From Ulota crispa (Eukaryota > Streptophyta > Bryopsida > Orthotrichales > Orthotrichaceae): 64,000 nucleotides of DNA. The stretch is taken from positions 22,453,167-22,517,166 of the forward strand of contig OY987246.1 of assembly GCA_963920765.1 (NCBI GenBank), read 5' to 3'. Of the stretch, positions 10,858 through 61,867 are shown piece after piece. Position 1 is the stretch's first letter; the number at the start of each line of letters is the position of its first letter. Both the position numbers and the translations under genes were made by a program. Under the pieces are notes generated by a model that saw only the letters and a list, made by a program, of their open reading frames with translations, did not search any database and was not told the DNA's origin.

Positions 10858-11789
10858 TTAACCCCTAAAGGACCAAGCCCTGTGAAAATCATTGAAAACT
10901 ACCATTTTTAGGAGGTTTAGTGAAAAGGGATTTTATGTTCTGATTTTGGTAAACTCAATTGTAGGATCTTGCCCTAGATTAGAAGAGGAATTTTTGGAAG
11001 AAAAATCAGCTCATTCTAAATGGAGAGGAGTGAGATATTACATCTAAAGTGAACAAAAATATTTTTTTCCATGCTGCCCAAAAATTTCAGAAGCCTTTGA
11101 CTACTCTTATAACAAAAGAATTGCTCTACCCAAAAGTTGCACTTTATTTTTTCCAAGTAGGAGATCAAATTAGGTATGTGTGGGAAAATTTTCAAATCAA
11201 TTGGAACTTTACAAGACATGGGAAAAAATAGTAGGTAAAAAGAAGTAGAGAATGAGTCAAAACACTAAATTGTTAAGAATTTAATTATTGAAATGAAAAA
11301 TGCAAATCCCAACGATTATAATGTTGTGATAAACAATCTACTTCTTTTGGTTTAATTTTTTTTTCCAAAATATTAAAAATTGAGTAAAATAAAGGACTTC
11401 AAATTTTATTTTAGAGTAGAGAGTCCATAAGTGCCCGCAAACAGAAACTCCACATAACTTTCATCTCATTGATTGAAATTGAATGATTCAAAGCTCCTCA
11501 TGTATAAAAAAATCTAAAGAACCAAATTTGAATTTGAAATTTTTTTTAAAGTACTTTTAAAGAAGTTTTTGGGCTGCCCGGACAGGCAATCCTCCCCAAA
11601 TTTTCATAAACTCATGCATAACTTCTTCATCAAATGTTGGAATGAAGAAAAAACTAGATGCCCACTGAGATTTTTGAATTCCCCACCTTCAATAAAAGTT
11701 TCAAAATATCACACAAAGTAGTTTAGCCATAGGTACATGCCCAAAGTCCAACTTGTCCCTTGAAGGGACAATGGTCCTTTAGGGGTTAA
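10858..11789. mobile_element. piggyBac-type non-autonomous element, 930-bp class, copy 1
   Basis: Bounded by TTAA on both sides with inverted ends TTAACCCCTAAAGGACCA. Length 932 bp, almost identical to the copies at 11968, 17263 and 18189. Internal landmarks shared by the class are GGGCTGCCCGGACAGGC and CATGCATAACTTCTTCA. No transposase is encoded. TTAA target duplication plus CCC-starting ends is the signature of piggyBac elements. Confidence 0.85.
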
Positions 11790-11856: not shown

Positions 11857-13180
11857 GAGCATTCTCAATCTGGCAAGTATATCGACTTTGTAACGGCACT
11901 ATCACAATGGGTCCTAGTTTGACAACTGCAAACATGATCCAATGCATCCTGCATGTGGGACGTGATCTTAACCCCTAAAGGACCATGGCCTTTATTTTGT
12001 CAAAAGACACTCAAAACTGCCACCTCTATGGCAAAGAGTAAAAAAGTTTGAAAATCAGGCATTTTGCATATCTGACCATAGGATCTTGTGCTAGACTATT
12101 ATTAGAATGTGTCATACAAAACTCAAGAACTTTGACGCACATATTGGAATATATTTGCATTAAAAAGGTAAAAACAACCTTTTTTGCACCTTGCTTGACT
12201 AGTTCTTTAACTTTGAACATTTTTAACTTAAAATTTTTGCACCTCAAAGTTTGGAATTCTATTTTTGCATGGTGGGAAGTTGAGTTGGGAATCTTGGGAA
12301 TTTTTTTCAAAAAATAATACTTAATTTTCATTCTTTAAAAAAACATTAGGTAGAAGAAGGTATGAGATTGAAGAAAAACTTAAATTGCTAATAACCCTTC
12401 AATGGAATTGAAATGCAATAATCCCAATGGTGAGATTGTTCTAGAAAGCAAACTTCACCCTCTCCAACAACATTTTTTGAGAAAATGTTAAATTTGCATT
12501 CAAAAATGAAGTTCATAAGTTATTTTTTCAAGAAGTTGCTTGAGTTGCCCGAAAAACAAGATTGTCCATAACTTTCTCATAACTAGTCCAAATGGAATGA
12601 ATCAAAGCTTTAGAAGTAGATAAGGATATAATCTATGAGAAAGAAAAATTAAATTTTTTTTTCAAGTTTTTATAAGAATTATTTTTGCTGCCCCTAGTCC
12701 CCAAATTTGTGCTTATTTGGGCATAATTTTTGCTCTCTGGCATCAATTGGAATAAAAAAATTATTCCCCAAAAGCTAATGTGTTTTTCTATCTTCAAAAA
12801 AAGTTTCAAAAAATTAGGACAAAAATTGAGGCCGTAGATACCTGCCCAAAATCCCATTTGTCCCCCGTAGGGACAATGGTCCTTTAGGGGTTAATGGGGA
12901 TAGCAAAACCTAGTCCACACTCCACACCTTGTAGTTTTAGCAACCCTCAAGAGTCTTTCAAATTTCTTTGTATACTACTGTTAGAGAAATGATGACTACT
13001 TTGCAATTCAAAATAGAGATCATGTCAAAAAAGTTTGACAAAAACAAAGTTTACATTCCTCTCTACCAGTGTGCATTGGGTAAGATGAGCTAGTGTGTCG
13101 CCCACTTAGCTCACGGCCAAACAATGAAGCTTTGAAATTGCCATTGCCAGCTCAATGCAAGGTGTGGATTGAGGATGCCC
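11857..13180. mobile_element. Tourist-like MITE split by a piggyBac-type element
   Basis: The left end reads GAGCATTCTCAATCTGG and the right end, inverted, reads GGGCATCCTCAATCCAC. TTA flanks both ends (11854-11856 and 13181-13183), the PIF/Harbinger duplication. The element at 11968-12894 sits inside it, so the Tourist copy (about 400 bp without the insert) is the older of the two. Confidence 0.65.
11968..12894. mobile_element. piggyBac-type non-autonomous element, 930-bp class, copy 2
   Basis: TTAA at both ends; inverted ends TTAACCCCTAAAGGACCAT on both sides. Length 927 bp. The right sub-terminal hairpin TCCCCCGTAGGGACA parallels that of copy 1 (TCCCTTGAAGGGACA). It lies 178 bp from copy 1 and is nested in a Tourist-like MITE. 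Confidence 0.85.
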
Positions 13181-39258: not shown

Positions 39259-39262
39259 TTAA

Positions 39263-41542
39263 CCCTTGAACGACGACGTGTGCCTTTCTGGCCAATACCG
39301 GACTTTTTCTATGTATTTGAAGGTCTTCTTGGGCTTTTTTTTTGCTGGAATTTTGAGGAGATTGTACTGGAGTCATCCCGACATATTAGATTTTTCCCGA
39401 TGCTTCCCTGTGTTTTTTGAGCTTTCGGGAGGTTGTTGTACAGATTTTGCCATACGGATACGTATGTAGGGTGGGTTTCGTGCTGCTTGGAGGAGCGGGG
39501 GGTTTCTGGGCGAAGGCGTGGCATTCAACCTGTCGAGGTGGCGTTGAGTTTGGCGGGAGCGATTTCATATTGTCCTGCTGGCTTTTGACCGTAGTGGGAG
39601 TGTGGCTCCTCCTCAAATTTGCAATTTGATTTCTTGGTTGTTATGAGGAGTAGGGTCTGAGGGTCGTTTAGGTGGTACACGTAGTGGTCTTTCGGTTTTC
39701 GGTGGCTGCTTCTGCAACGGCGATTATGGTCTACAGCAGTGGTCTTCAATTTTGGTATGGATTTCTATGCTTTTGCTTTCATTGCTTGGTAGGGTGAGAT
39801 ATGCATTTGGATTCATAATGACTTCCACGAGATTGCCGCCGCCGCCGCCGATTGAGCTTCGCGGGCCTGTTGCAATTTTGTATTGCTGGGCAGTTGAGCA
39901 CGGTGCTATAGACACGCATGCCACTTTGATTACGAGGTTCACCTCCCTTGAGTGGATGTTGCAACAACGGTTTCCACCGCGCACTTTGCTTGCATCGAGA
40001 TCAACGGATGCTCAGTGGTTTTGGTACATTTTCCAAAGGAACGTATAGAGCATTTTAGGGTGGACAAATTGCCGCAAGGAAGGCAACTCGCGTGGGTTCA
40101 GCAAAGAAGTCAATTTGCTTATTCGTCACACCTTCTTTCCAGATTTGCCGAGTGCCAACCATGGGATGGATGCAAGAAGAGGCCCCAGAGGCCGCACGCT
40201 TTCGCCACGAGGTGCAATCTCCCTCAACCCAAGCACACATTTGAAGGAGGCTCCTTGCCAATGGAGAAGGGGGGGTGATTCAAAAAATGCCAGCTACAGC
40301 AATCGCAATAAGGAGTACTCACAATCCAATTCAGAGCTTGGAGGGTTTGACGACGGAGCTGGGTTTCACGACATCGACTCCTATTTTTGGCGTAGCTTTG
40401 ATTTTGTCGCAGGGAATTCCGAATCAATAGAATCCAATTGCGATCATGGGGCTGGCACCTTGGTTTCGCAGCCAGAAAGAAGTTTACCCTCACGGTTCAA
40501 TTGAAGGAATCCGCATTGTACCTCAAGTGGCAGCATTCCCTTCAGCAGTGCAAAAAGAAGGAGGGATTCTGACGGCAATACCTGAAGACGTAGTGCCACT
40601 CATCCGCGGAGGAAGGGGGGGAATTCGTGGGCGTGGGAGGGATTGTGGTCGCGGAATGGGTCGAGCGTCCGGTGGTGTGGGGCGTGGGTGAGGTGGTACT
40701 CGTGGCAAGGGACAAGGAATGGGATTTTACTCCAAGTTCACAATGCAGCTACATTGTTGGATGAAAACAAAGGTACTGAGGGACAATTTACGGAGAGTGG
40801 AGTTCAAGGACGGCCTGTGCAGAGTTCACGGCATGGCAACCAATGCGGGAGGACAGTTCCTTGGCACACGGATTCTTCTAGAAGAGGTCTCATTCAACAA
40901 AGGAGGGTCGCACCATTAGGGTGGATTCCGCCTGGCATCTCTGCGACACGTCGAAGCCCAATCCAACTTTGCTCAAATTTGCGTGGAAGATTTGATCCAA
41001 GGTAAGTTTCTTTTTATATGCCTTTGCCCATCAGTACAAATGCAAGTTTATTTTTGAAAACCAATTGCTCGAGAGACGAATTTTGTACATAATAGTTCCT
41101 TTTCTAGGGGGGAATTTGTCTAGTATAAGGGTCCGGACCCGCCCCACAATTAGCGCAAATGAAGCGGGAGAATTTCCATCGCATGTTATGCAATTTGTCC
41201 AAAACGATACTTGGAGGGATTGCCTTGGGGTATCCTTTGTCTTCTCTCACGCATCAGCTATGAGTCCATACACTGCCTAACGTGGTCTTCCTTTACTGAA
41301 CTGCTTGTAACATGAACTATCATCCCTACCTAAGATAAACTGAATACAATCTTATTAACGCTAAACCCCCTTCCCATTCAGAACATGCTTTGCAAACCAA
41401 ACATGGATTGTGTTGTTCGTACCCTTAGACGCCATATCTCAGCTCAATTCCACTGGAAGCGTCACTTTGTAGATCAGATATAATAACCTTCACTACTATG
41501 GGAGAAGAAGGGGTCGACGATGTCGCTACCTCACGATACATG
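39263..41542. other. Left arm of the piggyBac element, unidentified cargo
   Basis: Moderate-GC sequence with short plus-strand frames but no recognised domain. The most protein-like is near 40446-40740: a Gly/Arg-rich stretch (RGGRGGIRGRGRDCGRG) continues past a stop into GTRGKGQGMGFYSKF. It may be a second decayed gene of the element or captured host sequence. A GCC/CCG triplet run lies at 39834-39850. Confidence 0.4.
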
Positions 41543-41694
41543 CACTATAAGAGAACACTGTCAATTTGGTCATTTCTTGTCAATTATGACATGTCAATTA
41601 CAACATTCTTGAGTGAATTAGGACACTTCTATGTCAATTTGGACACATTCAGTCAATTACGACATGTTAATTTGAACACCGTTTCCTAGTAGTG
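41543..41694. mobile_element. CACTA-like MITE, family C1 copy 3
   Basis: Starts CACTATAAGAGAACACTG and ends CCGTTTCCTAGTAGTG, with a perfect 3-bp target duplication ATG on both sides. 152 bp, matching the 151-bp copy at 24687. It is inserted in the left arm of the large piggyBac element and so is younger than it. Confidence 0.85.
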
Positions 41695-41938
41695 ATGGAA
41701 TGCGTGCTACAACGCATGACAGATCCCTGGGACCTTCAAACAAACCTCCAAGCAAACTCAATGTCAAATCCTTGTTGCTAAACCAATGTACAACGGATTG
41801 ATGCACTCGCCCTTCATGTCCCTTGTTGCAATTCATGCTCTAAAATACTAGACTACAATAACGTATGGGGCTGCTTCTTTACTTCTGATTCTGGCATAGT
41901 GCTCTTCACCTTCACGGCTTTCTAGCAATGTTTGACAA

Positions 41939-42346
41939 TTGTTCGTGATGTACAAGCCGCTCAACGGAGAATCTCACCCAGACTTTGGAAATCCAATCGT
42001 CGACATTCACTATAGAAGAGCAGCTTCTAACGACACACATGCGGTTGAGGTTGGATTCATTACGCCGCCCATCTTACCGACGAACGACATTCGGGGACCC
42101 CTTGCTTCCCCGACTGCCGTGGGAGCGTCTGATCTAGGGGTGTGCTTGTTTGCAGTGGCGGATTTCACTCCGGGCCAGTCGACGCTAGAGACTTCTGCAC
42201 GACAAGATCGGAGTCACTGCCGTCCTTGGAATCACGATTGTGGTGAGCCGCAGTGCCCTTATATAAAGGATGTTGTTTTTGTTAATGCAAGGGCTCTCAC
42301 GAAGGGGCTGCTTGTAGAGACCATCATATTGGGCCAAGTAGGATAA
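41939..42346 (+). CDS. Unidentified 135-codon ORF in the piggyBac left arm
   Basis: An uninterrupted frame with balanced composition, unlike the AT-driven frames elsewhere. It includes the Cys-containing segment WNHDCGEPQCPYIKD. I do not recognise a family. It may be an exon of a second gene carried by the element, or a captured fragment. No clear promoter or splice context was found. Confidence 0.3.
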   Translation: MFVMYKPLNGESHPDFGNPIVDIHYRRAASNDTHAVEVGFITPPILPTNDIRGPLASPTAVGASDLGVCLFAVADFTPGQSTLETSARQDRSHCRPWNHDCGEPQCPYIKDVVFVNARALTKGLLVETIILGQVG

Positions 42347-42599
42347 GAGGTGGATTCACAAGCCTGGCCAAACAGGGTGCACGTCATAGTTTTTTTACTG
42401 GCACTACCTTCCGAGAATACGGTGTCCTGATAGAGATATCTCCATCATGTAGATACTCGTTATATATTTATGTTTGTGTTGATTTCAATAAATCAACAGT
42501 TGAGGCAAAAGAGGTGGTCGTGGTGAGGATTACGGTTTGGTGACAACTCAGCGGCCATAGATTCCAGTGCGCTGCGCCGTCTTGTCACATGCACAGCTC

Positions 42600-42765
42600 A
42601 GGGGGGTAGGTAGCGGGTTGGCTGGGCCAATTTTCTGCCTCACTAGCTGCCAAGCCGTGAGCTGCCATCACCGCTCGACGAGTCCGATGGAATTCGAACC
42701 CGGACCGGCGGGCGACTAGAGACGACCGCTTCTCCAGCCAACCAAGTTCACGACTTGGCGACTGA
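42600..42765 (-). mobile_element. tRNA-derived SINE
   Basis: On the minus strand GGTTGGCTGGAGAAGCGG resembles an A box, and about 30 bp downstream GGGTTCGAATTCC resembles a B box. The intervening GTCTCTAGTCGCCCGCCGG and the general layout resemble plant Au-like SINEs. It does not fold as a tRNA. Ends are uncertain, and no clear target duplication was found. Confidence 0.45.
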
Positions 42766-43079
42766 AGACAAGCGTTTGACGCTATTATATGCTCGCAAGG
42801 GCACGTGGCCATTTTACGATGGTGTTTATTTTGTAATTTAATTATTTTCATATGTTTATCTAGATGTTTTGGAGGCTCATATATTTTGCCTTTGTTTGAA
42901 TAAAAATACTAAAGGTTTAGAAGTCAATAGAAAAGGTGTGAAAGGAAAAAGGGTTTGGCATCTATGATGGGGTTAGGATAAGAAGGGCATGGGCTGATGT
43001 GGCCCACCTCCCTACCTTAAATAGGGTCGAAATTATGGAGAAAAGATTCCTTAGTTGTTGGAAGTTAGTGTATGAGTGT

Positions 43080-43960
43080 TGGTGGGAAGAAGGGGAAAAA
43101 TCCCAAAACTTTGATGTGAGATTTTTTTCTGTGTATACTTGACTTTGAATTGAAATTTGAGGAGATCGTTCATTGTGTGATTACCTTTCCAAAATGAATT
43201 TGCAAATTTAATTTGGAGTTGTGATGCAAAAGTTATGAGTGTTTGAATTTTGGAGTCAAAAAGCCAAACTATGAAGAAAGGCTGAGACTTTGACAAGCCA
43301 TAACTTATGATCTATATTTCATTTTGCAACAAGATTTGAAGGGAGTGTTTATCTTAGTATTGGCTTTCTAAAAAGTCTTTAAACTTGAGGTTTGAAGCTT
43401 GGACAAAAAAGTTATAGAAGTGTGAAGGTTTGGAAGTGGTTGCCCTTTTGTTAGGAGAAAGCCGAGACTTTGAAGAGCTACAACTTTTGAATTGTATGAG
43501 ATTTTCTTTTCAGATTTATAGAAGTAATAGTTTATTGTCATAGTTTTTTGAATTGTCTTTAATCATTTTATTTGGAATTTTATTGAAGAAGTTATAGTGG
43601 GTAGAAGTTGCATGTTTGGGTGCTCTCTAAAAAATTGAGACCCACACTTTGATTGACTAGAGCTTTCGGACAGAGTTTTGTTTTGAAGTAAAAATTTTAG
43701 GGATTGTAGCCAGTGATATCATCTTTCTAAATTGATATCACGTTTCTATGAGTGATGTATAGAACAAAAGTTACAGAGGTTTATAGAGGCAGTGTTTAGT
43801 TTGTAAGGAGGAGTAAGAGCCTCTACTTTGAACCCACATAACTTTTGGATAGTATCTTAGATTGAGTTGAAATTTAGAGGGATGTTAGAAGGTTAGAAGA
43901 GCTTTTCAAATTGCTATTATACTTAACATTTAAATCTTTGAGCCATCTGTGGCACTAGAT
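43080..43960. repeat. Degenerate tandem repeat, about 180 bp unit
   Basis: Five loose units recur with the core CTTTGA....ATAACTTTTGA at about 43107, 43287, 43459, 43653 and 43836, each followed by a similar pattern of AAGTTATAG and GAAGTTTGG words. Similarity is low, so the array is old. It lies within the left arm of the large piggyBac element. Confidence 0.5.
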
Positions 43961-45188
43961 AGAAGGTCGCTGCTTTTCTAGGACTTGTTGTTTGTGATTT
44001 TTCCCATTGTTTTTATTAAAACATGAAAACTTGAAGACATGAAGACTTGAAGATCTGAAGATATGAAGATTTCAAGAGGAATGCTTTGGGCTTATTTTTT
44101 ATGTATGTGTGGGATGTGGCTTTGTTATTCCTAGCCAATTTTGGAGGCTCATTTGTCAATTCATTTCCATTCTGTTTTGTAAACCTTGTTGCGGGCAGTT
44201 TGGGTTAAACCAAATTTAACCCCATTTATTGTCGTGGTGACAAAGTGAGATTGATCACCCACATGGTCGAGACTTGCTCTGTTCTCACGATCTGGAGTTT
44301 TGGCCAGCAGATCGTGAATTTGATTTTAGGATCCCGTCATACGGACGGCAACTCGTGTTTGCTGTCCCGATCTACCCGTCTCGTATCCAGTGGGCTTTTA
44401 TCCCTACCTTGACCCTTATACCCTTAGAGCCAGTCACAGGATAGGTCAACGGAAGACTGAAGACTGAAGATTTGAAAAGAAGATCAAGATTAAAGACAAT
44501 TTTAATCGGCAACGCACGATCGCAGCAAGACACCCTGCGTGTTCTCAAGGCGCGCTCCTCTCAACCCGACAACGGTGCCGGCCGATCTCATCCCATTCAG
44601 AGGGGAGGTTCTTTGACGCTACTACAACGCCGTCACCGCTTTGCCGATGTTCATCATTGAGTTTGGCGGCCCGATAGGATTACGAGAGATCCTTGTCAGC
44701 GACACGCAGTGGGACGAGGACGACCCTTGGGGACCCCGCTCGCAACGGACTTTGCTGTATGGGGATTGCTCAACCAACCTAGACCCGGTAGGGGCTCTTG
44801 GACAAGCGGAGGCACCGCCACGTGCTCTTAGCGACGGCTCCTTATCCGACTCCAGTGATGTGGAGTAGAGAGTTGAGTACCAAGACTTTGACGAGGATAA
44901 TAGCATGGGAATTCCTTTGTTGTCTGCTGATTCCTTTGCGGAGCATCTAGTGTACAAGTTGGGGTTATGTAGTGAAGTCAAAGACACCTCATCATGGACA
45001 TTTGACGAGACGTGGGGAAATGACCAGTGGCAAGAGCCAGTGCTAAACCTGGTCGGAGATCTACGATTTCATGGACCAGAACCCGGGGCAACGAGTAGGC
45101 TTTGGATGGTACCTGCATGACCTATTGACTATTTCATGAAGTTTTGGCCTGGGACTACGTTGGCCCCTATCACTCAAGAGACTAACAG

Positions 45189-45944
45189 GTAATAGTCACT
45201 GTTGTTCCTATCTAGTAATTTTCAATTTCCTTTTTCAATTTTCACGTGGTTGTCACAATCTTTGTTCATGAATTACCGACCTTGTTTGCTCTTTTTGTTC
45301 TTGGCGTCACTTAGTTTTGCAAATGTGGGATCCGGTGCTTAGGTTGTACCATATTACGTATTAGTAGATCTCTTGCATGGTCTTTGAACTTGGTATCCAG
45401 TCCTCCATTCCTAGCGGGTAATCACCGTGGAGGGGTAATTTCACTCAGTTGGTATTTGCCTTCACGACCACCGGCGTAGGTTTTGTATTGGGGTCCACAG
45501 CCCCTTTCAGCCGACCTAGGTGTATCGCTGTCTTCTGGCAACGTCTTCTTAGCCAACTCCTATTCACGTATGGATATTACTCTTCAATTATCTACCGCTG
45601 CTTATCCGTGTGCGAACTAGGCTGGTGTAGGTGCTAGAAGCTTAATACATGACGGGGCTCTATCATTGATAGTTTTGTTGACTAGCGACAGATTTGCTGT
45701 TTCCTGGCTGATCTATGATACTTGTCACGTTTATTTTAGTAGAAAACCTCCTGGGACCATTTTCGTTCAAATTCTTTGCGTAATTGCGTGAGTGCATGAG
45801 GATGGTAGGATGTGTCATGTTTGCCATTGTTGTCTTGGTAGGATGTGCTATGTTTGCCGTTCTTATTTTGCTGGGTTTTTATTGCCATTCCTCTTTGATT
45901 GTCCTTGGACAATGACGAATTGAACTTTGGTACCTTGGATGCAG
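45189..45944 (+). other. Intron 1 of the piggyBac transposase
   Basis: Starts GTAATAG after ACTAACAG and ends GGATGCAG. Joining restores the piggyBac motif TNRYANQ across the junction, which supports it as a true intron. No other gene is seen inside. Confidence 0.75.
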
Positions 45945-46424
45945 ATATGCAAATCAAGCGAGCCGCAAATTTTCTCATTTGACCAATGGCCATCGTGATT
46001 GGGTCAATCTAACAGAGGAGGAGTTGCTCTGCTGGTTTGGAGTCCTGGTACTAATGGGATTGAAGGTTCTGCCTCATCAATGACTCTACTGGGATACTCA
46101 ACCAATTTATAATTGCCCCATAATCTCTTCGGTTATGAGCCGCAATCGGTTCAAAGCCATTGTGCGTTGTATCCACTTAGTCAACAGCCATGACCTTGCA
46201 AGCAACGTCACTAATCCTAGGTTTGATAAGATAGGGAAGGTACGGGCTTTGGTGGAGAACTTTGCTCAAATTAGCCAATCCCTCTACAACAATGAAGCCA
46301 TCGTGACTGTTGACTAGATTATGATACCCTACAAAGAGCGATTTTGTGGAATTAGGCAGTACATGAAATCAAAACCTGTCCGTTTTGGTATAAAACTCTG
46401 GACCCTCGCATCTAACCAGTCTAG

Positions 46425-47643
46425 GTGTGTTTCCTCAAAATTTCACTACTTTCATGCATTTCAGTTTTGAATTTATACTTTGTTAGTTCTAGTGGAAGAG
46501 GGTTCAAGAATAATGTCCACATAAAAAGCAGCAACAGTTGTTCTTGTATTTCAATTTCTGTTTGATTACATGTATGGGCCGAGTGTTCTAGAGTTGTGAA
46601 AAAAGCGTAAGCACCTGGACACTTTATCCCCGTCAAAGGTCTACTCACGCATTTATAATGGGGGGGGATTTGAAGTGTAGTTACAAGCGTTAGCCGTTGG
46701 GTTCTATCTTTGTGCAAACAAATCTCCAAAAATTTTATCCCGCAATTTGTTGATTAGTGTGTTGAGTGGTTTCTATGTAATGGCCTTATAATGTGTGAAT
46801 TTTGTTATTTTTTGAGGTTCTGCAGCCACGGTAACAATGTGGCATGACAGTGTTCTCTAAGTCAAGGGTGTGCTTGTCCGCGAGGTGTGATGGCCAGACA
46901 CAACACGAGGTAGTCCGCGCTGCGCATAGTACTAGCGGGTCGCGCGTACTCTCATCCGTTGTGCCCTGCATGCGCGCCATGCGAAGCATCTGGCAACGCT
47001 CCTCCTGCCACACTTGTCTCGCGAGGCTCATCCGGCGATGCCCATCCTGCAAGGCTCCTCTCGCAACGCTCGTTGCGCGAGACTTGTCTCGCGATGCCCG
47101 TCCCGTGAGGCTCTTCCCGCAACGCTTGTGTTGCAACGTTCCTCTTGCAACGCATAGGCAAGCGACTAATAGGCACAACGCGCGTACTGTTTGGGGCCGC
47201 GAGTTCACTTTGCAACGCGTGGACCCTCAAGAGCCATGAGTCCTCTTTGCATTGTGTCGTGCACACTGCCAGGTGCCGTGACTTTGCGCCTCGCAAAATG
47301 TTGGGCTTTGCATGTGGCAAGGACACAGCAAGGATGAACTAGCGCTGCGGGGCAGCTTTGTCCCGCACGCATTCTTGGGCACGGCAGGTTTGCTTCGGGT
47401 TGCGCACCGCGCAGTGTCCAGCACCATTTCTTTGCGCCGTGCGTAATGTCGGGCTCCACGGGTCCGCTTGGGGCCGCGCACACTTCAGGCTCCGCATGCA
47501 ACAGCGATGCATCGCGGAGTAACTGCCCGCAACACTGGGTTCCGCAAATCAATTAGCGTTGCGTTTCTGATTGAGGCTTCCGTTAGGGTCAGTGTAGTTT
47601 TGAGTATTGTAATGTATAGATTTAGGGAATTCCCTGGACTAAG
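46425..47643 (+). other. Intron 2 of the piggyBac transposase
   Basis: Starts GTGTGTTTCC and ends before GTGGGTATTTGG; the junction falls within the conserved SRxxxGYxxxxxVYxG region. It contains a very GC-rich block (about 46850-47560) and the 14-bp minisatellite. Overlapping frames there are a compositional effect. Confidence 0.7.
46991..47158. repeat. 14-bp degenerate minisatellite, 12 units
   Basis: Twelve consecutive 14-mers follow the pattern TCGCAACGCTCNTC, for example TGGCAACGCTCCTC, TCGCGAGGCTCATC, CTGCAAGGCTCCTC and TTGCAACGTTCCTC. The array is GC-rich and CpG-dense in an otherwise AT-rich window. Confidence 0.85.
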
Positions 47644-48560
47644 GTGGGTATTTGGTTATGAAAACAGGTACATATCAAACGTGCAAGTGTACATGGGAGC
47701 CGAAAGAGAATGCGAGGTTGGATCCTTGGTGGGCGAGGACGCTGTGCTATAGGCTGTGCGTGGAATCAAGAATCGTGGCCACACTGTGGTCACGGACAAA
47801 TTTTTTTTCTGAAGTGAAGCTTTTTATGAGGCTACTTGATTGGGGATTCTACGCTACTGGCATCGTGAAGAAGGGTTCAAAGGGCTTTCCGACATCGTTG
47901 GCCGAGTTTCCGAGGATTCAGTTTCCACCGCGCAATACACTCATCACAAAGATGCACTAGTCTAGGGCCATCTCCGCCATTTGTCGGATAGACTCTAAGC
48001 CAGTATGACTTCTCAGCACTGCAACAAATCCGGTGGAGGAGGGTATTGTGGTGGGCAGGTGGATCAAGCGCGACAAAGTCAACTTCCCCACAAGCCCTAT
48101 TCTTCTCCAATACCAAAGTAACATGCACGAGATTGATGTTGTAGATCAGCAGAGAGGAAGTTACTCAGTCATGTTGCATTTGCATAAGTGGTGGCAGCGG
48201 ATACTCACGTTCATTTTGGATTCCTCATGTTTAAATGCGTATGTGCTTTATTGTGAGGATGCAATATGCGTTGGTTTGGAAATTTAGACTCGGCTTGAGT
48301 GGCATTATGAGCTGGCCATAGCGTTGGTGCATCCCCACTTGCAAGGAGGGACTGTGCGAGGTCCACACCGCACTCTTACACGTCCAGGTTTTCATATGAT
48401 CAAGGGTCACTCAACCCTAAGACCTAACTGTGTGGTGTGTAGACGATGTATCCATAGGTTTTGTGGTGGTTGCAGTTGTGATTTCATGTGTGATGGGATG
48501 TGTTATGTGAAAATCCACACGCAGCCTAGTTATAGGAGATAGGCTTGCCGATGATTGTTT

Positions 48561-48841
48561 GTGACAGGGTGGATATTTCCTCTTTGAGGTGTTACAGTGA
48601 TAAAGTTGTGACAGGGTGGATATTTCCTCTTCGAGGTGTGACAGTGATGAAGTTGTGACAGGGTGGATATTTCCTCTTTGAAGTGTTACAATGATGAAGT
48701 TGTGACAGGGTGGATATTTCCTCTTTGAGGTGTTACAGCAATGAAGTTGTGACAGGGTGGATATTTCCTCTTCAAGGTGATACAGTGATGAAGTTGTGAC
48801 AGGGTGGATATCTCCTCTTCAAGATGATACAGTGATGAAGT
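48561..48841. repeat. 47-bp tandem repeat, six units
   Basis: Units start GTGACAGGGTGGATATTTCC at 48561, 48608, 48655, 48702, 48749 and 48796, exactly 47 bp apart, with few substitutions between them. It starts 18 bp after the final stop codon of the transposase. Confidence 0.95.
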
Positions 48842-50626
48842 ACTGGCGTGTGAGCCGTTTACGATGGGGCATGAACAGGATGAAGTACTACCATCTCAAG
48901 CGATTACGGTGAGGCATGAACGGCATGAGACATGGAAGTTGTTAGGGCATCAGAGTTTGTTGGAGGAGTTACATTATGTGATAGATGAAGGGCTAGTCCT
49001 TTAGCCGACGTCATACAGGGCAAGAGGCCTAGACCTTGAGTTTAGCTGAAATTTAGTAGTTCAGATATGAAGCAATATGCATCTCTAGGATTGCAGGTTT
49101 TATTGGTCACTCTTTTGAGCTCCACAGAACCGCAGTTTTGTATTCCCGTTTTCTTAGGTGGTTGTGGGCTTTGACTTTGTGTTCAATTCAGATTTGTTAG
49201 TACAATTTGGAGGTAGTATGCATCCATAGGATTGCACTTTTTGTTGGTCACTAGTTTTGGCTTTCTAAGACAGTACTTTTGTATTCACGCTTTTTCACAG
49301 CTTCCTTACAAAAGAGCCAACGGATGTGGCTCATTCAGTTTTTTCATGAATAGTTGCATACTCTATGCTTCTTGTGAATGTTGTATCCTCTTTTGTTGCT
49401 TAGAATCTCACATTTGAAACAATAGTTATGTCAATGTCATGCTGGTTGGATGCATGCCATTTATCAATGCATCCGGAGTAATTTGAGCTACAGAAGGAAG
49501 GATCATCGATGCTGGACCCCGTCCAATGTGTCTTGCGAGCTAGACCACTGATCACGTGCTTGTGTTTGTTGTTATTAGTTGATGCGGATTGGAGGGCGGG
49601 GAAGTTGATTGCATTCCTTATCCTCAAAATGGCTGATTGCATCTTTCTATCCACGATAGTGAACTTGTTTACTAGATAGTGGAGTTAAGTGCACCAAAGA
49701 TCAGAAGTACTTGTCTATTGTGCTACTGTGGATTGTAATGGTGGGCTATAATGGTAGGAGGAAGCTAGACACTCTCATCTTATTGTAAACCAAACACTGC
49801 CCCCCTCCCACAAACACCCACCCCGAAATTGCTTCAAGGTGTTGCAATCCCAAAAATACCCTACTGCAAGTCATCGATACGTTGAGATCTCTACCTCATG
49901 CATCATAACAAAAACCCCACGAAACAGCCTTCTTACGCCTTTGACGAGCAGGAAGTCTAGGAATGGTCCGTCCAAGAAAATGACACCCAGCCACAAATAA
50001 CCGTGAAACCGCTTTCCCAAAGGAAGTGCCGCTCACATCCCAAACCGCCAGCCCCTACACTCATAAGTGCATGATGACGCGCCAGTAAGTCCTTCAGCAT
50101 GGACTAAGTGAAGTGTGAGTTGCTAATCCATGAACTCACTCCATACAAAACCCTTGAATTTCAAATACCTCTGCAGGTATCGATGCTTCCACGGGATTGA
50201 CGATGACGTTCATATTGGTACTTGAAGTGGGTCAGGGTGTTAGAAAACTGGTGTAATGCAGAACCTCCAAAAATAATGACAAAATAGATTGTGACAGTAC
50301 ATCTGATTTGCATCTTGTACCTAGCAAACTCAAGTCACACGCTTCCCGCGACCTAGTCATCCCGCAGGTGGCATCACACATCACGTGTGAACTACCCAAA
50401 ATTGTACGCTTCTCCGGGCCACCCGCCCTTTGCTATACGATATGGAGCATCCGGCAGTTTTCATATCACAACCCTGATCTTCTTGCAATCAACTACAACA
50501 ACACCGGGCCAAGAATCCAAACGCATTGAACGGAACAAATTTCTAAACGCGCCTCTGTCGAGAATGCTAAATCACAAGAAACAAATATATCCCGACTATA
50601 CGAAGGCAGCCCTACGGAGCCCTCTT
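48842..50626. other. Right arm of the piggyBac element
   Basis: Non-coding as far as I can see. Two related segments (about 49080-49165 and 49215-49300) share AGGATTGCA....TTGTTGGTCACT and TTTTGTATTC words, suggesting an old duplication. Confidence 0.4.
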
Positions 50627-51057
50627 GTCGTTCAAGGGTTAAGGTAGAAGCACCTTAATATGACAACAGTTGTTTACGGACTCCTACAAATAAGCCATAA
50701 TCTAATCCATCAAATACCCAAATTAGACATGCAAGTGAGCTAAAGTTGTCACTATAATTGAATATTGGAACACAAAATTGTGTAGGTGGCACCATGTGGT
50801 TGGCTCTTTTTTGATGTCACATTTGCATTTCAATACAAGCAATTCAATGAGGGTCTAGTGTCCACAATAGGTGTGTCTAGGGAGTTACCTTCAATAATTC
50901 GTAGTTTATTCATACGATCTTAGAAAATTCCAAAAACAATTTTGCAACACTCTCTGCTGGTTTCCTAACTCTTCTACAACCTTAGAATCTTGATGCACAC
51001 TCTTAGTGAATGGATGCAACAAAAGTGTCACATTAGATGCTTCTACCTTACTAAAGT

Positions 51058-51147
51058 TTAACCCTTGAACGTCAAAGGAGACAATTTCTGTCCCTAGGAA
51101 TACATGGCCGTGTATCCACGGTCACACCCCCGGCATGCAAGGGTTAA
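51058..51147. mobile_element. 90-bp TTAA-type mini-element, copy 3
   Basis: Intact TTAA on both sides. The left end TTAACCCTTGAACGTC matches the end of the 11.4-kb element (TTAACCCTTGAACGAC) at 15 of 16 positions; the right end, inverted, reads TTAACCCTTGCATGCC. The interior aligns with the mini-elements at 2912 and 5303 (ACATGG..GTGTATCCACGGT). It lies 415 bp past the right end of the large element. Confidence 0.8.
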
Positions 51148-60807: not shown

Positions 60808-61867
60808 TTAACGCCTAAAGGACCATTGTCCCTTTGGGGGATAAATGGGATTTAGGGCATGTACCTCTGGCTAAACTACTTTTTGTGATTTTTTGAAACT
60901 TTTAATGAAGGCGAGGAATTCAAAAATCTACATGGGAATGTAGTTTTTTCTTCATTCCAACATTTATTGAAGAAGTTATGCATGAAAATCTGGGAAATGC
61001 TGCTCCCCAGGCAACCAAAAATTTCTTTAAAATTTTCATTTTTTTCAAATAAAAATACGAAATAGGTTCTTTAGACTTACATAGACATGGGGAGCTTTGA
61101 ATCATTCAATTATGATAGATGAGATGAAAGTTATGAGGAGTTTTTGTTTGCAAGCAATTCTAGATTCTCTACTCTAAAATCAACTTTAAAGTCCTTTACT
61201 TTACTCAATTTTCATTATTTTGGAAAAAAATCAAAACCAAAGGATGTAGATTATTTATCATAGCACTATAGTGCATGACACTTATAACCAACAACTATTG
61301 GCCAGATAAGAAATACCAAGGCACAACATGTATACTCATTAGCTCAAAAGTAATTCCACCACCAAGCAAGACAAACCCTAAGCTTCATCTTGGTGGACTC
61401 GTATAACCGTTGGGATTTGCATTTTTCATTTTAATAATAAAATTCTTAACAATTTAGTGTTTTGACTCATTCTCTACTTCTTAATACTTACTATTTTTTC
61501 CCATGTGTTGTATAGTTCCAATTGATTTGAAAATTCTCCCACACGTACCAAACTTGGTCTTCTACATGGGTAAAAAAAATCTCAACTTTGCTTAGAGCAA
61601 ATTTTTTGATGTAGGAGTGGTCAACGGCTTCTGAAATTTTTGGGCAATACGAAAAAAAACTTTTTTCTTCACTTCACATGTAAATATCTCACTCCTTTTC
61701 ATTTGATTTAAGCTCATTTTTCCCCCAAGTACCTCATACTATTTAGAGCAAGCTCTTACAATTACATTTCAGAAAAATTAAAAATAAATTACCACTCCTT
61801 TCATCCCCAGAAGTGGCAGTTTTCAATGTGTTTCACAAAGAAAAGGGCCTGGTCCTTTAGGGGTTAA
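60808..61867. mobile_element. piggyBac-type non-autonomous element, 930-bp class with an insert
   Basis: TTAA at both ends; left end TTAACGCCTAAAGGACCATT and right end, inverted, TTAACCCCTAAAGGACCAGG. It aligns with the 930-bp class in reverse orientation (AACCAAAGGATGTAGATTA, TGGGATTTGCATTTTTCAT). About 140 bp of extra sequence near 61264-61407 explains its length of 1060 bp. Confidence 0.85.

Follow-up and report, generated by a model that had tools for sequence, protein, structure and literature searches.

Evidence for a decayed piggyBac transposon with a multi-exon transposase and an N-terminal extension in Ulota crispa

Results

The window analyzed here, a whole stretch of 64,000 nucleotides from the genome of Ulota crispa, contains at 39259-50642 what we read, with a probability of about 0.93, as a piggyBac transposon that inserted at TTAA, carries a multi-exon transposase gene with an N-terminal extension and has since decayed (Table 1). 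In genome coordinates the element spans C5:22492425-22503808. Its two ends match exactly in opposite orientation. The 16-bp sequence TTAACCCTTGAACGAC has 0 mismatches at both the left end (+) and the right end (-), TTAA stands on both sides (39259-39262 and 50639-50642), and the inverted ends CCCTTGAACGAC, exact at both sides, have the CCC(T/C) start of piggyBac superfamily ends. Matches to the 16-mer with up to three mismatches number 21 in the window, against 0.61 expected by chance; only the two piggyBac ends match perfectly, and the interval between them contains none of the others. Between the ends, with stops read as X, the exon at 45945-46424 matches the Pfam family DDE_Tnp_1_7 (PF13843) at E=1.7e-31. 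A second match (E=1.2e-13) covers the region from about 47810 to 48542, and a 47-residue piece between the two reaches 12.4 bits, short of the 22.4 cut-off. The matching inverted TTAA ends and the recognizable transposase that a sequence-only reading of this DNA had reported are both borne out. Scans of the window with Rfam and for tRNAs gave no match.

Table 1. Features of the piggyBac element in the window. Percentages are residues conserved with L056, a locus of the same lineage elsewhere in the genome. LTR, long terminal repeat.
Feature	Position	Strand	Remarks
piggyBac element (probable)	39259..50642	+	11,384 bp with both TTAA counted; about 9.2 kb if the LTR insert is subtracted
Left end: TTAA and 12-bp terminal inverted repeat	39259..39274	+	exact 16-mer
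5' coding block	39677..40504	+	39779-40093 (48%) and 40079-40276 (42%) conserved, tblastx
5' coding block	40793..41001	+	47% conserved; ends at GT donor (41002)
N-terminal extension and start of next block	41936..42422	+	1 stop
Probable solo LTR (TG...CA) in transposase gene	42423..44571	+	2,149 bp; flanks TACGG/AACGG
Rest of split exon: acidic region and apparent piggyBac-domain start (IDYFMKFWPGTTLAPITQETNR)	44572..45188	+	3 stops
Transposase exon	45945..46424	+	DDE_Tnp_1_7 profile positions 29-166; 2 stops
Predicted intron inside transposase domain (GT...AG)	46425..47667	+	imperfect GC-rich 14-bp repeats at 46989-47142
Last transposase exon	47668..48542	+	profile positions 168-215 (sub-threshold) and 218-349, then Cys-rich C-terminus
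47-bp tandem repeats, 3' of transposase	48559..48840	+	repeat scan
Right end: TTAA and 12-bp terminal inverted repeat	50627..50642	-	exact 16-mer

The two ends of the window copy belong to one element because relatives elsewhere in the genome carry both together. The left 300 bp was found at C1:12473732 (87%), C4:19746913 (69%) and C2:30863296 (74%, over 109 bp) and the right 300 bp in one place, C4:19748320-19748595 (70%); C4:19746913-19748595 holds both ends, 1.7 kb apart, with the interior mostly missing. A DNA search with the last transposase exon returned at least 25 genome matches, the window included, among them C4:6111055, which lies 6.3 kb downstream of an exact 16-mer at C4:6104713. 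The 10 kb fetched there contain a relative of 9.1 kb, running to about C4:6113791, with the coding blocks in the window order and the shared inner sequence GAGGGCTCCGTA at its right end. The same block order recurs at C1:1176510-1184004, a relative of 7.5 kb that has TTAACCCTTG at either end. The closest copy, at C1:12473732, is 88% and 86% identical in two pieces. These lengths also bear on the claim that the element is unusually long: its large size is mostly native, made of long inter-exon gaps, the 5' extension and a long 3' region.

In one relative, L072, the last exon resembles known piggyBac transposases. In the PDB it matches piggyBat (9c0f, E=9.8e-09) and, at E=0.001, the transposase of 6x67, which we take to be that of Trichoplusia ni piggyBac, and the alignment with both covers the DN and D..DQ places of the second and third catalytic blocks. 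At the three places that we presume to hold the catalytic residues the window reads VTVD, VVTDKFF and IDVVDQQR, the first assigned by position only. The Cys-rich C-terminal stretch, NCVVCRRCIHRFCGGCSCDFMCDGMC, a candidate counterpart of the superfamily's C-terminal zinc finger, matched no family model. Upstream, neither the block at 39677-40504 nor the L056 counterpart of 44572-45188, after which a GT donor is read at 45189, has a match in Pfam.

The extension block proper (41984-42313) is 39% identical in protein to its L056 counterpart, which has at least 22 protein matches in the genome, and further 5' blocks at 39779-40276 and 40793-41001 are conserved in L056 as well. Fifteen of the 22 matches lie 2.4-7.6 kb upstream, on the same strand, of a last-exon match, and C1:12476460, in the closest copy, makes 16; the other 6 have no transposase partner among the matches listed, all such numbers being lower bounds. 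Conversely, 15 of the 25 last-exon matches listed have an extension match upstream, and C1:1181603 is preceded by a partial one. We compared 18 of the 22 copies (15 fetched, together with the window, L056 and the closest copy). The proportion of nonsynonymous differences (pN) is below that of synonymous differences (pS) in all 153 pairs (mean pN 0.42, mean pS 0.72); differences are most frequent at third codon positions (0.61 versus 0.44 and 0.42), and in the close pair formed by the window and the closest copy pN is 0.13 and pS 0.19. Since the copies were found by protein similarity, which favors low pN, and pairs share ancestry, the excess of pS supports coding without measuring its strength. 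Eleven aligned copies, the seven with stops being left out, give the majority residues VCxYSVxDFTPG and PWEHNCGxxxCPFxKEA.

That the extension is instead a protein of its own, or a fragment captured from the host, and no part of the transposase, we consider improbable. It has no credible relative in either database: the 11-copy alignment gave no match in the PDB at E up to 1, and searches of Pfam with the 11 members gave two single-member matches (E=0.02 and 0.23) that are unrelated to each other. Furthermore, its profile reaches only chance-level scores in nine piggyBac-domain matches outside the lineage, L001-L008 and L073, of which L001-L008 span 1.5 kb on each side, so that a more distant extension would be missed. 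Against this, the closest copy has the extension and the transposase N-terminal region in one open frame of 158 codons with no stop, and many copies retain the extension, with lower pN than pS. If the extension is indeed part of the transposase, its job is most likely, though we put this at slightly less than an even chance, to bind DNA or chromatin and so help target or regulate the enzyme; the main alternatives are structural or nuclear-localization roles.

The transposase domain itself is interrupted, and we infer that the gaps between coding blocks are introns removed by splicing. A GT-AG gap is found at profile position 166-168 in several loci, and a second gap, read by eye in the window, lies just before profile position 29. 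At the gap that separates the last two exons, the donor GT is at the same place in all 7 loci with the donor in view and the acceptor AG in 9 of the 11 with the acceptor in view (12 lineage loci: both sites in view in 6, acceptor only in L050, L051, L053, L054 and L055, donor only in L039; L047 is the same place as L056 and was counted once). Read by eye, the frame is restored when the exons are joined in the window copy and in C1:1176510. A tree of 21 chosen proteins places the 12 loci of the window lineage on one side of a branch with 100/100 support, while the intronless L001-L008, which are the best-scoring domain matches and not a random sample, form several deep branches and L073, also intronless, is left ungrouped. 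The window lineage thus appears to form one intron-containing branch among intronless matches. Independent insertions or decayed DNA could also separate the blocks, and the same gap does vary in length (279, 974, 1243 and 1436 bp in four loci) and two acceptors fit inexactly, with the AG one base away in L052 and absent in L056. The constant position of the gap, the conserved splice dinucleotides, the restored frame and the single branch in the tree make this explanation very unlikely. An uninterrupted domain, usual for piggyBac and not defining, is not found in the window lineage. As a separate observation, the GC-rich repeat run at 46989-47142 lies inside a stretch common to the closest copy.

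Taken by themselves, the ends fall short of proving 39259-50642 to be a single unit, because the 16-mer is common and often bounds short elements. The genome has 198 exact copies (95 on the forward and 103 on the reverse strand), compared with 0 for the reversed control, which shows that the word does not recur by chance, and 16 of 30 fetched 16-mer loci, at 15 different places, have a partner end with up to four mismatches giving an element of 228-244 bp. Two unrelated TTAA-ended elements, such as miniature inverted-repeat transposable elements (MITEs), might accordingly stand 11.4 kb apart and enclose a transposase belonging to neither; no other 16-mer pair about 11 kb apart is seen among the matches listed, which are part of the 198. 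We regard this as highly improbable. The left and right sequence of the window copy recurs with the same coding-block order at C4:6104713 and C1:1176510, C4:19746913 has both ends without most of the interior, and the interval between the window ends is free of 16-mer matches with up to three mismatches. On the strength of these three two-ended relatives we rejected a chance pairing of MITE ends, and the possibility raised in the sequence-only reading, that the ends come from two elements, fails on them. We also considered whether the short elements are derivatives of the window element's family and found no support for this, as similarity beyond the 16 bp is rarely above shuffled controls (among the 30 loci, L029 and L036 exceed the background maximum of 31 at the left end, and L029 that of 27 at the right end); for these elements we claim no more than an end motif in common.

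Several observations weigh against a single decayed piggyBac at this locus. The right end at C4:6104713 is mutated to TCAA; the match of the closest copy stops at window 47536, leaving its right part unconfirmed; the window's own transposase is not among the piggyBac-domain matches listed; and the inexact acceptors have been described above. In addition, an empty TTAA site, which the sequence-only reading had proposed to look for, did not turn up: with the joined flanks as query, 0 of the best 40 of 177 candidate matches span both flanks. One candidate, C2:13095894, extends into the left flank by 36 bp (80% identity overall), and we rejected it by eye because the short stretch is unconvincing.

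The window copy is dead. Its coding blocks are interrupted by 11 or more in-frame stops, and the frame changes near 47810. Seven blocks hold 17 stops in all, of which six were set aside: 3 lie beyond splice sites, 1 coincides with the frame change, 1 is likely the natural end, and 1 closes the first block outside the conserved part. That first block has 1 stop inside the conserved part, and the last exon has 4 stops, a fifth at the frame change and a sixth at its end that may be natural. Dismissing the element as a domesticated plant gene that merely resembles a transposon, by analogy with PGBD5, a domesticated multi-exon piggyBac-domain gene (PMC3902484), is scarcely credible given a multi-copy lineage of at least 25 last-exon DNA matches, itself included, the TTAA ends and the stops; these stops and ends refute domestication for the window copy, while more intact relatives could be domesticated. 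Of the sequence-only claim of an autonomous element, the piggyBac identity holds, and past autonomy may be supposed for a copy that is now dead.

Over 6,108 aligned bases the window and the closest copy differ by 617 transitions and 116 transversions. The transitions fall 225 in CG, 135 in CHG and 257 in CHH contexts (H being A, C or T), against 874, 711 and 3,601 available sites in the whole 11.4-kb element including the LTR, which are approximate denominators. This excess at CG and CHG looks like the trace expected from plant DNA methylation.

The sequence-only reading had also proposed later insertions, and this holds for one stretch. The segment at 42423-44571 is most plausibly a solo LTR whose insertion split the transposase gene, because it has TG...CA ends and a duplicated flank (TACGG versus AACGG, 4 of 5 bp alike), is absent from the closest copy, where the sequence runs from window 42424 straight to 44572, and has paired copies elsewhere. 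Among the best 40 of 953 candidate places for its first 600 bp, the 39 others are 94-95% identical, and in three cases two LTR copies occupy the same strand at a distance of about 8.4 kb, for example C3:22382885 and 22391294.

To the right, the flank at 50641-51055 consists of a dispersed repeat whose inverted ends read AGGTAGAAGC and which has TA on either side. It resembles a Tc1/mariner-type MITE (best 40 of 177 candidate places scored). In 35 of 38 scored cases, matches elsewhere start at joined-flank query positions 156-161, at or just before the junction. Since the base after the repeat's right TA is C, the TTAA was probably created by the repeat's own insertion. This would give an order in which the TA repeat made a TTAA, piggyBac then used it and the LTR later entered piggyBac. 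We envision a scenario, with transposition chemistry inferred from the piggyBac family, in which a spliced, multi-exon transposase with its N-terminal extension would bind both ends, cut at TTAA and move the element, which would insert by cut-and-paste at a new TTAA and duplicate it. The copy would then decay by point mutation, and at some time an LTR retrotransposon would enter the transposase gene and be reduced to a solo LTR.

The sequence-only reading described piggyBac as patchily reported from plants and algae; it is no rarity in the genome examined, where a profile search gave at least 120 piggyBac-domain matches, all above the family cut-off (116 of 528 candidates scored, four genes as two pieces). 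Most of those listed contain stops. That this is a plant genome is supported by chlorophyll a/b-binding genes, one matching land-plant LHCII chains over its full length. Its best entries aligned in a single stretch, 8htu and 7xqp, are from Physcomitrium patens; 9vfj leads the ranking only when two stretches are added together.

Several side observations were made. L073 (C8:19569500-19573500) has a 460-codon stop-free piggyBac-domain frame with a Gly/Arg-rich frame upstream and could be young or domesticated. Two opposite-strand pairs of piggyBac matches have identical scores, C7:18203169/18223004 (about 20 kb apart) and C2:36765124/36779670 (14.5 kb), suggesting inverted duplications. At C4:21391382-21771811, 8 strong matches to chlorophyll a/b-binding genes are clustered, several of them scoring identically. 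The window also holds several end types of the TTAA-element kind. Elements of about 930-1,060 bp with TTAACCCCTAAAGGAC ends lie at 10858-11789, 11968-12894 and 60808-61867, the first and last about 80% alike and the second having mainly the ends in common. Immediately right of the TA repeat, a 90-bp element at 51058-51147 carries TTAACCCTTGAACGTC and, at its opposite end, an inverted TTAACCCTTGCATGCC.

Discussion

Within a superfamily that is already known, the window lineage adds a variant with introns and an N-terminal extension. More surprising is how abundant the piggyBac lineages of a single plant genome are and how deeply they diverge. In the tree of 21 chosen sequences the many copies fall into several deep branches, which favors a long history in the plant line, or repeated arrivals, over one recent invasion. 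piggyBac has been studied mainly in animals. The extension represents an uncharacterized domain and a candidate for DNA or chromatin binding, and the bias of decay toward CG and CHG, seen between two copies, resembles a legible record of plant DNA methylation.

Splicing-dependent expression ties P element activity to particular tissues. By analogy, we speculate, while considering it rather doubtful, that a clade of mobile piggyBac elements in land plants has gained spliceosomal introns in the domain, a new N-terminal domain through which the transposase targets or evades host chromatin, and tissue-tied splicing. If this is true, splicing-dependent expression would tie the activity of the clade to particular plant tissues.

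The literature consulted mentions piggyBac in plants in general terms (PMC3902484, PMC8086355, PMC10813416). Among the papers listed in searches of the open literature we found no description of the structure of a plant piggyBac family, Repbase and subscription papers being outside the search. One counterpart is a table for the fern Ceratopteris richardii, which lists PiggyBac with 1,230 copies and 122,417 bp (PMC6890710). Like the window element, these are piggyBac-like repeats in a land plant; the entry is a table line averaging about 100 bp per copy and describes neither structure nor transposase.

Compared with piggyBat (9c0f) and 6x67, the window element likewise has TTAA on both sides, a CCCTT end start, a DDE_Tnp_1_7 domain and, in its relative L072, second and third catalytic blocks that align; unlike these members of the superfamily, it is about 9 kb long, has introns in the domain and an extension with no recognized fold, and resides in a plant. 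CCCTT is the most conserved piggyBac end motif, and a well-defined piggyBac measures 2,472 bp (PMC10813416). Animal elements range from 1.23 to 9.51 kb, with intact transposases of 503-1316 aa encoded by single open reading frames (PMC10813416). The long ones resemble the window element in its 9 kb, long protein, TTAA and CCCTT, so length alone is not new; they differ in that the window gene is split.

A 2013 statement held the piggyBac domain to be uninterrupted except in PGBD5 and the ciliate piggyMacs (PMC3902484). The window lineage is like PGBD5 in having introns inside the domain (PMC3902484), and, compared by description only, like PiggyMac in having N-terminal sequence ahead of the core, in PiggyMac a domain of 220 residues (PMC8086355). 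Unlike these two, both of which are domesticated (PMC3902484, PMC8086355), it is a multi-copy family with TTAA ends. A mobile piggyBac with introns in its domain would offer a natural comparison for PGBD5, which is itself set apart by its introns (PMC3902484).

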